Shown here in pieces: positions 31,894-43,764 of a stretch of DNA of 64,000 nucleotides. The DNA is taken from assembly GCA_013348725.1 (NCBI GenBank), contig CP054689.1, forward strand, positions 2,724,501 to 2,788,500, in the 5' to 3' direction. The position numbers were made by a program, and so were the translations under genes. A model generated the notes under the pieces. That model did not search any database. It worked only from the letters and a program-made list of their open reading frames with translations, and was not told where the DNA came from. How positions within the stretch are numbered: position 1 is the stretch's first letter; every line of letters begins with the position of its first letter. The stretch comes from Ectothiorhodospiraceae bacterium 2226 (GTDB lineage Bacteria > Pseudomonadota > Gammaproteobacteria > GCA-013348725).

Positions 31894-32760
31894 CTAGTGT
31901 AGGGCGAGCGACAATTGCTGGCGATATCTGCTGACCAGCGGGCCCTTGTCGCCAAGCAGCGAGAACACCTTGATCATCGCCTTGCGCGCCGCATCGTCTG
32001 CATAGGTGCGATCGCGGCGTAGGATCTCGAGCAACTGCTCCAGGGCGGCCTCGTATTCGCCGTTCAGAACCCGGCGCGCCGCCAGTTGATAGCGTGCGCC
32101 GAGGTCGCTCGGGTCCTGCTCGACGGCCCGTTGCAGCGCGGACAGCGTCGGCGCCTCGGCCGCCGTGCGGGCGAACTCCAGCCGTCCCATGAGGGCGCTC
32201 ACCTCGGCTTCCGTCTGTACGTCGATGGGCAACGTTTGCACGATCCGGGCCGCCTCGTCGAGCTGCTCGGTTTCCACCAGCATTCCCGCCAAGCGCACCT
32301 GGAGCCGGTAATCATCGGGCGCGGCCTGTGCCGCTTGACGCATGGCGGCCAGCGCCTCGTCGCGATTGCCCTGTTCGAACGCCTGCATCGCCGCGGCCAC
32401 CAGTTTGTCCGTCGGCCGCTCGATGTAGCGATCGATGATCTCGCGTATGGCGGGTTCGGGCTGCACGCCCATGAAGCTGTCCACCGGCGCGCCATGGCGG
32501 AAGAGCACCACGGTGGGGACGCTGCGCACCCCCATCTGTTGGGCCAGCCCCTGCTCGTCGTCGATGTTGATCTTGGCCAGCAGGAACTTGCCGCGATACT
32601 CCGCCGCCAGCTTCTCCAGCACCGGCATGAGCATGCGGCACGGGCCGCACCATGGCGCCCAAAAGTCCACCAGCACAGGCACTTGTTCGGACTGCGCTAG
32701 CACCGCGCGCGCAAAAGTCGCTTCGCTGGCGTCGAATACGTTGGGTAAATCCGTCGTCAT
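31894..32760 (-). CDS. cnoX: CnoX/YbbN-like chaperedoxin (thioredoxin plus TPR)
   Basis: The N-terminal thioredoxin domain (about residues 1-110) holds DFWAPWCGPCRMLMPVLE with an intact CGPC site and the SVPTVVLF cis-Pro loop. From about residue 115 the protein is TPR-like (AAAMQAFEQGNRDEALAAMR; GARYQLAARRVLNGEYEAAL). This matches CnoX chaperedoxins, which protect substrates from overoxidation and hand them to GroEL; unlike E. coli CnoX (SXXC), this CGPC version should be redox-active. Length 288. The symbol is by similarity. Confidence 0.9.
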   Translation of the reverse strand: MTTDLPNVFDASEATFARAVLAQSEQVPVLVDFWAPWCGPCRMLMPVLEKLAAEYRGKFLLAKINIDDEQGLAQQMGVRSVPTVVLFRHGAPVDSFMGVQPEPAIREIIDRYIERPTDKLVAAAMQAFEQGNRDEALAAMRQAAQAAPDDYRLQVRLAGMLVETEQLDEAARIVQTLPIDVQTEAEVSALMGRLEFARTAAEAPTLSALQRAVEQDPSDLGARYQLAARRVLNGEYEAALEQLLEILRRDRTYADDAARKAMIKVFSLLGDKGPLVSRYRQQLSLALH

Positions 32761-33002
32761 GACTGGTTACTCTCCCTGCTTAAGTGCTCGTACAATCAAT
32801 ATCTAGTGACATGTTCTTGAAGTACTACGTTAAGGGGTTACTCCAACCGCGGGCTGCCGTATCCGGCATCATCCCAGAAACATCAGTAATCATCCGTATT
32901 TGCATGAGATTCTTAGCTGCTAGAGTTACCAACGTCCTTGCAGCGTGGTTGGCGGAGACCCGCACAAGGACAGGTCACCTACATCGAGTCGCAATGAATA
33001 AC

Positions 33003-33121
33003 AATCTTGATGGTCAGGGACGAATCGAAGTCAGGGAACACGACGGACGAATCATAGGGACGTGAGTCAGGCAGGAAGCCTGCTTGGGATGCAGAGGCGG
33101 TCGCGAGACCGCCTTTTTTTT
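33003..33121 (+). ncRNA. candidate RsmZ/CsrB-family CsrA-titrating small RNA
   Basis: Six GGA motifs fall within 72 bases (33018, 33035, 33045, 33058, 33074, 33087), in contexts CAGGGA, ACGGAC, AGGGAC, CAGGAA and TGGGAT typical of CsrA/RsmA sites. One is in the loop of a perfect hairpin: CAGGC (33068-33072), AGGAA, GCCTG. A strong plus-strand terminator closes it. The neighbours on the right, fdxA then mutS, are those of rsmZ in Pseudomonas. There is no convincing protein. The 5' end is a guess; I found no clear promoter and no good TGTAAG-N6-CTTACA GacA site. Confidence 0.72.
33096..33121 (+). terminator. intrinsic terminator of the candidate sRNA
   Basis: GGCGGTC, loop GCGA, GACCGCC, then eight T. 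The T tract is on the plus strand only, so it does not serve fdxA, which is transcribed from the other side. Confidence 0.9.
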
Positions 33122-33140
33122 CGTCCATCGGTCCGCGCGC

Positions 33141-33464
33141 TCAGCGTTCCAGCTTGTCGAGCTTGCCCGGCTTGCCGTTCCATTCGTCGGCGTCGGCGGG
33201 CGCCGGTTTCATCTCGGTGATGACCGGCCAGGACTGTGCCAGTTCGGCGTTCAGGGCGATGAACTCTTCTTGTCCCTCGGGCACGTCGTCCTCGGCAAAG
33301 ATCGCCTCGGCGGGGCACTCCGGCTCACACAGCGTACAGTCGATGCATTCATCGGGGTCGATAACGAGGAAGTTCGGGCCCTCGTGGAAACAGTCGACCG
33401 GACACACTTCCACGCAATCGGTGTACTTGCACTTGATGCAATTCTCGGTAACGACATACGTCAT
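33141..33464 (-). CDS. fdxA: seven-iron ferredoxin FdxA
   Basis: This small electron carrier has one [3Fe-4S] and one [4Fe-4S] cluster. The Cys motifs are [17 protein letters not shown] (from residue 9) and [12 protein letters not shown] (from about residue 40). The start [13 protein letters not shown] is the family N-terminus, preceded by AAGGAG; upstream in-frame residues are ignored. Length 107, with the usual C-terminal AWP-like tail ([12 protein letters not shown]). Upstream of it lies mutS, as in pseudomonads. Confidence 0.95.
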
Positions 33465-33623
33465 CCAACGATTCTCCTTCCGAAAAATTGGGTGGCCGTT
33501 TCCCCGCAGCACACCAGAATCCGCCTATGTTAATGCCTCTGCAGGCGCCACGCGACCCCGCGGGCGCCAACGCGCATCCGACAGGCGCGGAGCCTGAGGA
33601 AGCCCGGATGGATCCTCGCGGAC

Positions 33624-36203
33624 CTAGCTGCGCTCGGCGAGCGTCTTGAGCTGGTAGAGCAGCTCCAAGGCGGCGCGGGGACTCAAGTGGTCCGGCTGGA
33701 CCTGGGCCAAGGCGTCGAGAACCGGATGGCGGGCGGCGGAAAACAGCCCGAGTTGTTGTTGATCGGCCGCCGCCGCGGGGGCACCGGCGTGGGCCTGCTG
33801 CTCGAGGCGTATGAGCTTCTCACGCGCGCGCTCGATCACCGGCGCCGGTACCCCGGCGAGCGCCGCGACCTGCAAGCCGTAGCTCTGGTTGGCGGGGCCT
33901 TCTTTCACGGCGTGCAGGAACACAATTCCCGCCCCGTGTTCAACCGCGTCGAGGTGCACGTTGACGGCGGCAGGAATCTGCTCGGGCAGGGCGGTGAGTT
34001 CGAAGTAGTGGGTCGCGAACAGGGTCATCGCGCCGGTCTCGCGCGCCAAGTGCTCGGCACAGGCCCAGGCGAGCGACAGGCCGTCGAAGGTGCTGGTGCC
34101 GCGCCCGATCTCGTCCATGAGCACCAGGCTCCGGGGCGTGGCGTTGTGCAGGATGTTGGCCGCCTCGGTCATCTCCACCATGAAGGTCGAGCGTCCCCCG
34201 GCCAGGTCGTCGGACGCCCCGATGCGGGTGAAGATGCGATCGACCGGCCCGATGTCGGCCCGCTCCGCCGGCACGTAGCTGCCGATGTGCGCCAGCAGCA
34301 CGATCAGCGCCGTCTGGCGCATATAGGTCGACTTGCCGCCCATGTTGGGGCCGGTGATGATCAGCATGCGGCGGGCGTCGTCGAGCCGCACGTCGTTGGG
34401 GACGAACGGCCCGTCCGCGACCTGCTCGACCACCGGATGGCGCCCGCCCTCGATGTGCAGGCCGGCGTTGGCGCGCAGCGTCGGGCGGCTCCAGCGCAAC
34501 GTCTCGGCGCGCTCGGCCAGCGTGGCGAGGACATCGAGTTCGGCCAGCGCGGCGGCGGTGGCCTGAAGCTGCGGCAGGGGCGCGTTGAGGGCATCGAGCA
34601 GGCCCTCGTAGAGCGCCTTCTCGCGCGCCAGCGCACGCTCCGCGGCGGATAAGGCGCGGTCCTCGAAGGCCTTGAGTTCGGGCGTGATGTAGCGTTCGGC
34701 GTTCTTGAGGGTCTGGCGGCGCTGGTAGTCGGGGGGCACATCGCCGGCCCGCGCCCGCCCGACCTCGATGTAATAGCCGTGGACCTTGTTGTAGCTCACC
34801 CGCAGCGTGGCGATGCCGGTGCGCGCCCGCTCGCGCGCCTCGAGCTCGACGAGGAAGTCGCCGGCGTTCTGCTGCAGGCCGCGCAGTTCGTCGAGCTCCG
34901 GGTCATAGCCGGGGCGGATTACGCCGCCTTCGCGCACCAGGGCGGGCGGCGCCTCGTCGATCGCCCGCTCGAGCAGGGCGTGCAGCTCGCCGTGCGGGCC
35001 GGCGGCCTCGGCGAGCGCGCGCAGGCGTGCCGGTTCCAGCGGCGCCAGCGCCGCCTGTAACGCGGGCAGCCGGCCCAGCGCCTCGCGCAGCACGACCAGG
35101 TCGCGCGGTCGCGCCGAGCGTAGCGCCACGCGGGCGAGGATACGCTCCACGTCGCCGATGCCGCGCAGCAAGGTGTGCAGTACCGGGTGCTGACCCTCGC
35201 TCAGCAGCGCTTCCACGGCGTCCTGGCGGGCCGTGAGCTGCGCCGTGCTGCGCAGCGGGCGGTGGATCCAGCGGCGCAACAGCCGGGCGCCCATCGGACC
35301 CGCGGTGTTATCCAGCACGCCGAAAAGGGTGTGCTCGTCGCGCCCGCCGAGGTTGGTGTCGAGCTCCAGATTGCGCCGCGCGGCGGCGTCGAGCAGCAGC
35401 CCGTCCTCGGGGCGCTCGGCGGCGATGGCGCGCAGGTGGGGCAGGGCGGCACGCTGGGTGTCGCGCACGTACTGCAACAGACCGCCCGCGGCACACAGCG
35501 CCAGCGTCAAGTCGTCGCAGCCGAAGCCCGCAAGGTCGCGCGTGCCGAACTGGTTACACAGCAAGCGATGGGCCGTGTCGGCCTCGAACAACCACGGCGG
35601 CTGGCGGCGGAGGCCGCCGGCGCGCTCCTCCAGCCAGGGCGGGGCGGCGAGGTCGTCGCTCAGCAGCAGCTCGGCCGGGCGCAGGCGCTCGAGTTCGGCG
35701 CGCAGCGCATCATCCCCGTCCACCTCCAGGACCCGGAAGCGGCCCGCGGTCAGGTCCAGATAGGCCAGCCCCCAGCGCCCCGCCTGGGCCACCAGCGCGG
35801 CGAGCAGGTTGTCGCGGCGCTCATCGAGCAGCGCCTCGTCGCTGACCGTGCCGGGCGTGACCACGCGTACCACCTGGCGTTCCACCGGCCCCTTGGTCGC
35901 GCCGGGCTCGCCGATCTGCTCGCAGATGGCGACCGATTCGCCGAGTTTGACCAGCTTGGCGAGATAGCCCTCGACGGCGTGCACGGGCACGCCGGCCATG
36001 GGGATCGGCCGGCCCGCGGACTGCCCGCGCGTGGTCAGGGTGATATTGATCAGGCGCGCGGCCTTCTCGGCGTCGTCGTAGAACAGCTCATAGAAGTCCC
36101 CCATGCGGTAGAACACCAGCGTGTGCGGGTGCTCGGCCTTGATGCGCAGGTACTGCTGCATCATCGGGGTATGCTGGACGGTGGCGGGCGGTGCGGCGCT
36201 CAT
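33624..36203 (-). CDS. mutS: DNA mismatch repair protein MutS
   Basis: MutS recognises mismatches and small loops. The N-terminal mismatch-binding motif is [11 protein letters not shown] (Phe and Glu that contact DNA). The C-terminal ATPase has Walker [14 protein letters not shown] at about residue 620 and [14 protein letters not shown]. Length 859. The start at 36203 ([20 protein letters not shown]) is chosen over an upstream in-frame ATG since the family begins close to the MMQQYL motif. Convergent on fdxA's strand, 160 bp divergent from the PilZ gene. Confidence 0.97.
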
Positions 36204-36362
36204 GGCGCGCCAGTGTAACGGCTCGTTCAGGCCCTGCCTATGACCGGTGCACGCCTCGCAGGATGTCGAGAAAGGCCGGGCCACCCAGCGCCACGCGCCG
36301 CGCCCGGTTGGACGCTATACTCGCGGCCAGTGGGACATGGTCGGCCAGCAAGGGGGTGCCCG

Positions 36363-43569: not shown

Positions 43570-43764
43570 ATGTTGATTCTGACTCGGAGAGTGGGGGAGA
43601 CGTTGGTGATTGGGGACGACGTCACCGTCACTGTGCTGGGCGTCAAAGGCAACCAGGTCCGAATCGGCGTGAACGCGCCGAAGAACGTCTCGGTTCACCG
43701 TGAAGAGATCTACGCGCGGATCCAGAAGGAGAAGGAAGAGGATTGTCAGCAGGGCGTGGGTTAG
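43570..43764 (+). CDS. csrA: carbon storage regulator CsrA (RsmA)
   Basis: CsrA is a dimeric RNA-binding protein that blocks or stabilises mRNAs at GGA motifs. [20 protein letters not shown], the [14 protein letters not shown] core and [10 protein letters not shown] are diagnostic. An AAGGAG ribosome-binding site ends 9 bases before the ATG and itself contains a GGA. The 174-bp leader holds seven GGA triplets (43437 to 43560), compatible with autoregulation. Length 64. Two tRNA genes follow. Confidence 0.97.

Follow-up and report, generated by a model that had tools for sequence, protein, structure and literature searches.

A candidate RsmZ/CsrB-type CsrA sponge RNA convergent with fdxA in Ectothiorhodospiraceae bacterium 2226

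Could a short GGA-rich intergenic stretch beside fdxA in Ectothiorhodospiraceae bacterium 2226 encode a CsrA sponge? Such RNAs are central switches between growth modes. The known counterpart is rsmZ of Pseudomonas: in P. aeruginosa it has rpoS on one side and fdxA on the other (PMC3349714), and in P. fluorescens it is found with fdxA/mutS (PMC4353343). An earlier note, made by reading the 64,000-nucleotide stretch analyzed here (the window; contig CP054689.1), had proposed an RsmZ/CsrB-type small RNA (sRNA) at this place. We examined the window, its genome (2.96 Mb, one contig) and 142 other genomes that share its class alone.

The candidate sRNA occupies 33010 to 33121 of the plus strand, with a predicted length of about 107 to 119 nt. 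Its 5' end is presumed from a weak −10-like AACAAT at 33000 to 33005, which would put the start near 33010 to 33013; a σ70 promoter scan of the region gave no match. The presumed promoter region is the A+T-richer sequence at 32761 to 33009, shared with the divergent gene on the other side. Six GGA motifs, all within 72 nt as had been noted, are read directly from the sequence at 33018, 33035, 33045, 33058, 33074 and 33087 (33018 to 33089), and these putative CsrA sites have the A-N-GGA form in four cases. The penultimate hairpin at 33068 to 33082, CAGGC-AGGAA-GCCTG, has a 5-bp stem with one GGA in its loop, and a counterpart hairpin aligns in relatives. The intrinsic terminator with its eight T, also described before, is present at 33096 to 33121 (GGCGGTCGCGAGACCGCC followed by T8; GGCGGTC-GCGA-GACCGCC) and is the sole terminator-like site in 32700 to 33600. 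Its stem starts 9 nt from the start of the last GGA and carries the GGCGGYC signature of fdxA-linked sRNAs described below. The repeats that had been pointed out exist (GGACGAATC at 33018 and 33045; AGGGACG at 33016 and 33056), but they match over just 9 and 7 nt, and the internal duplication read into them finds no support beyond repeats of 7 to 12 nt.

The proposed gene neighborhood was largely verified by profile searches. fdxA, encoding a ferredoxin (33141 to 33467, minus strand; NF045490 FdxA_Protbact, 171.9 bits), is convergent with the sRNA, and 19 nt separate the end of the terminator from its stop codon. mutS (33624 to 36284, minus strand) lies upstream of fdxA and was assigned by inspection and from tblastn matches at homologous loci; its listed open reading frame probably begins upstream of the true start codon. 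The opposite flank holds a cnoX-type chaperedoxin gene (31894 to 32760, minus strand) with thioredoxin and TPR profiles (PF00085, PF14561 and PF14559), divergent from the sRNA, and rpoS is encoded elsewhere in the genome. The presumed ligand, CsrA, is encoded about 10 kb away at 43570 to 43764 on the plus strand (NF002469, 119.1 bits) by a single-copy gene, the one PF02599 match in the whole genome. Alternatively, the frame at 32784 to 33065 might encode a small protein, the RNA being its 3' part. The frame is open for 93 codons, but it has no match in Pfam or NCBIfam and its GC3 is 0.51, compared to 0.78 to 0.92 in cnoX, fdxA, mutS and csrA, in agreement with the earlier view that no credible protein is encoded here; we regard a protein as barely conceivable.

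How unusual is the GGA cluster? Six GGA are observed compared to 3.3 in mononucleotide shuffles and 4.4 in dinucleotide shuffles (P of 0.06 and 0.20, respectively); if all 83-nt windows of the intergenic region are considered after shuffling, P for six GGA is 0.026. The count by itself is near chance, mildly unusual at most, and is weak evidence. A skeptical reading would therefore be that the stretch yields the 3' end of a transcript or a short intergenic RNA, that the terminator insulates the fdxA side, and that the GGA are incidental to a G- and A-rich sequence that CsrA does not bind; a count only mildly above shuffles fits this reading, as do the lack of an Rfam match at cut-off and of a GacA box (see below). 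The combination of a GGA cluster with a terminator is rare in the genome: the candidate is the only one of seven terminators in the window preceded by at least five GGA, and across 1.24 Mb (42% of the genome) only 2 of 55 have at least five in the preceding 110 nt, namely the candidate and the clpB 3' untranslated region (UTR). The GGA cluster alone is unremarkable; the case for a sponge rests on comparison.

RNA folding qualifies one part of the anatomy. The penultimate hairpin had been said to present its GGA in the loop; the motif is there, but it is not the best exposed, because the 5-bp hairpin (predicted at −6.7 kcal/mol) competes with a 9-bp stem (−12.1 kcal/mol) that buries the loop GGA. 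The minimum-energy fold keeps this GGA mostly paired, and its unpaired probability of about 0.35 means that it would be exposed about a third of the time, while the remaining five GGA have predicted unpaired probabilities of 0.54 to 0.92. CsrA binding could tip the balance between the 9-bp stem and the GGA-loop hairpin.

Sequence families give a hint. At Rfam gathering cut-offs, the window contains tRNAs only and no sRNA family, and the candidate falls below the cut-offs of PrrB_RsmZ, RsmY, rsmX, CsrB and CsrC; the covariance search suggested for the RsmZ, RsmY and CsrB models thus returned nothing at cut-off, and RF00166 (PrrB_RsmZ) gave no match at any listed level. Under permissive settings, rsmX (RF02144) is the best of 4,227 families for 801 bases around the candidate, with 20.1 bits against a cut-off of 56, in an alignment that spans the full length (33000 to 33117) and includes the GGA-loop hairpin and the terminator. 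This match is a hint of likeness, not of membership, because similar scores elsewhere in the genome are terminator matches; the other RF02144 matches (L002 and L003) were discarded as ordinary terminators. A class-wide RF00166 search yielded one match above cut-off, in a genome (G161) without fdxA within 1.5 kb of it, and the weaker matches were set aside as terminators for the most part. Another genome has, below the RF00166 cut-off, a CsrB-like RNA (L277 in G007) that carries nine GGA as well as a GacA-box-like site of 11 of 12. Nine loci with RNAs of the fdxA-linked type had zero Rfam matches at cut-off. By Rfam's definition, the candidate is outside RF00166 and RF02144, whereas by anatomy and position it is RsmZ-like: as with Pseudomonas RsmZ, it would be an RNA of 110 to 130 nt beside fdxA and mutS, with several GGA and a terminal intrinsic terminator, and it differs in having no RF00166 match, no GacA box and a chaperedoxin gene in place of rpoS. 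Rapid sequence divergence puts most CsrA sponges beyond the reach of Rfam models, so that, a few model genera apart, they mostly go unannotated. When the region was compared with 143 relatives by blastn, the only matches were scattered, 18 to 34 nt long and apparently due to chance.

Do other bacteria have RNAs of like make-up at the same place? We compared 170 regions downstream of fdxA, drawn from named contigs and one-per-family genomes. GGA-rich, terminator-ended stretches pointing at fdxA occur in Billgrantia (two), Halomonas and Vreelandella (L044, L070, L081 and L099), in a proteobacterium (L059) and in genomes G042, G044 and G119, and several of them show textbook GGA-loop hairpins. 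At least six upstream GGA precede 8 of 25 fdxA-facing terminators, compared to 4 of 52 other terminators of the same loci (Fisher P = 0.009, an optimistic value because three of the eight are related Halomonadaceae). GacA-box-like sites lie upstream of the fdxA-facing RNAs at L131 (TGTAGGACTAATCTTACA), L133 (TGTAGGAATATTCCTACA) and L099 (TGTAAGTTATGTATTACA), and in several relatives they are about 210 to 350 nt upstream of the terminator. Two further GGA-rich, fdxA-convergent stretches were kept out of the core set, one because its GGA sit in a dsbC-like coding end (L039) and the other because its terminator is different (L174). Two loci with the gene order fdxA-cnoX-dsbC (L027 and L068) have no clear sRNA. 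At L131 (G044), a tandem pair of GGA-rich, terminator-ended RNAs lies downstream of fdxA, both facing it, and the GacA-box-like site belongs to the one nearer fdxA. At L133 (G042), the space between the sRNA and fdxA holds a GC-rich repeat (GGCCTTATGCCGCG...GCGGC) in several similar copies.

The terminator itself connects these RNAs. GCGGYC occurs in the 5' arm of 7 of 79 terminators of the relatives' loci, and all seven belong to fdxA-facing sRNAs. The full pattern GGCGGYC-N2-10-GRCCGCC-TTTTT has one match in the whole source genome, which is the candidate, and is found in 30 of the 142 other genomes. In four of these (G042, G119, G001 and G089) the match converges on fdxA from no more than 3.1 kb away, for which the chance expectation, estimated from positions, is about 0.03; these four matches are preceded by four to eight GGA, with a GacA-box-like site in three. 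The non-fdxA matches that were read have five GGA at most. G001 (four GGA, site 11 of 12) and G089 (eight GGA, site 9 of 12) were first found by this pattern search. Beyond the candidate, nearly all of the set have a GGCGGYC-type terminator and most have a GGA just before it.

Ten fdxA-linked RNAs, the window excluded, served to train a covariance model (R1). It aligned to the candidate over its full length (33000 to 33119) with 21.1 bits, the top match both in 1.24 Mb and in the whole genome, where the runner-up, at 19.3 bits, matches in the terminator only; the E-values of R1 are optimistic, because other genomes contain many 20-bit matches. R1 also picked up further members in G121 and G054, both convergent with fdxA at about 3 kb, and in G020. 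When the RNAs are aligned jointly, every row has the penultimate-hairpin GGA in register, and the stem shows two-sided changes. The given structure beats slid versions and 500 of 500 shuffles on percentage paired and on covariation score; these statistics are supportive but short of proof, because the structure was partly chosen from the same sequences. The candidate and these RNAs have in common their anatomy, their position and orientation relative to fdxA, and the architecture of terminator and penultimate hairpin.

Taken together, RNAs of like make-up with the same terminator signature point toward fdxA in no fewer than eight other families of Gammaproteobacteria, which supports the original proposal; we consider an RsmZ/CsrB-type CsrA sponge the best explanation of the candidate, and a quite probable one. 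Incidental GGA, by comparison, are an unlikely account, since fdxA convergence, the terminator signature and the penultimate GGA hairpin recur in GGA-rich, GacA-boxed RNAs of other families and a model trained without the candidate ranks it top in its genome. By synteny and terminator, the candidate is a putative member of a broader fdxA-linked group, likewise fdxA-convergent and GGA-rich (L044, L070, L081, L099 and L059, and in G042, G044, G119, G001, G089, G121 and G054), several of which differ from it in having a GacA-box-like site. This predicted RNA set is widespread, and none of its members that were checked is recognized by Rfam at its cut-offs. The fdxA neighborhood combined with the GGCGGYC terminator offers a practical route to such sponges across Gammaproteobacteria.

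Convergence with fdxA raises another question: could the RNA act on fdxA itself, by read-through or 3'-end pairing, with CsrA titration secondary or absent? The 19-nt spacing to the fdxA stop is compatible with such a role, and CsrR2 of Alcanivorax dieselolei, which adjoins a ferredoxin gene, is described as antisense to it (PMC9788540). CsrR2 resembles the candidate as a CsrA-related sRNA with an adjacent ferredoxin gene and has six unpaired GGA, but the candidate's terminator stops ahead of fdxA. Moreover, the related RNA faces fdxA from about 3 kb away in four genomes (L306 in G089, L299 in G001, L315 in G121 and L328 in G054), and in at least two of them (G089 and G001) a gene for an AddB-like PD-(D/E)XK nuclease lies between. 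Because of this distance, conservation does not extend to pairing with fdxA, and we judge an antisense role highly improbable.

If the candidate is a sponge, the plus strand from about 33010 to 33121 would be transcribed into a noncoding RNA of the RsmZ/CsrB kind, displaying several GGA sites, mostly single stranded or in small hairpins, and ended by the strong terminator. The RNA may bind at least two dimers of the single CsrA, and this titration would free CsrA-repressed mRNAs; the candidate would represent, in this genome, a set of fdxA-linked sponges of ancestral origin.

What would drive its expression? Solely by analogy, the regulator may be GacA. A GacA-like regulator is encoded at C1:114216-114848, with 45% identity to a GacA sequence, and its best NCBIfam model is UvrY/SirA/GacA, at 238.8 bits against a cut-off of 280. 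The sCache_4 sensor domain is typical of BarA/GacS, and a search of the genome for this BarA/GacS-type domain found none. No GacA box (TGTAAG-N6-CTTACA) is recognizable in the 600 nt that precede the sRNA, where the best match with 6-nt spacing, 7 of 12, is at chance level, and a relaxed consensus with other spacings gave no convincing site over 32400 to 33010. The locus is a test case for a sponge that lacks the GacA box typical of such RNAs. A broader scenario, to which we give a low probability, is that the fdxA-linked sponges are all orthologs, a single ancient RNA family that spans much of Gammaproteobacteria and is absent from Rfam, and that GacA-box control was lost here in favor of another input, possibly a protein-stress control common to the divergent chaperedoxin gene and a sponge from the clpB 3' UTR.

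Further sites deserve mention. A perfect GacA-box palindrome (TGTAAGCCTTTCCTTACA) lies at L202:12755-12772 (genome C1:61755), ahead of a PstS-like gene with several GGA in its leader, and a weaker box, 11 of 12, is at L237:2412. At its 3' end, clpB continues into a GGA-rich stretch (L247:2767-2881, plus strand; genome C1:about 2256767-2256881) that holds eight GGA within 110 nt, together with four GGA-loop hairpins and an intrinsic terminator; it is possibly a second, 3'-UTR-derived CsrA sponge of this genome.
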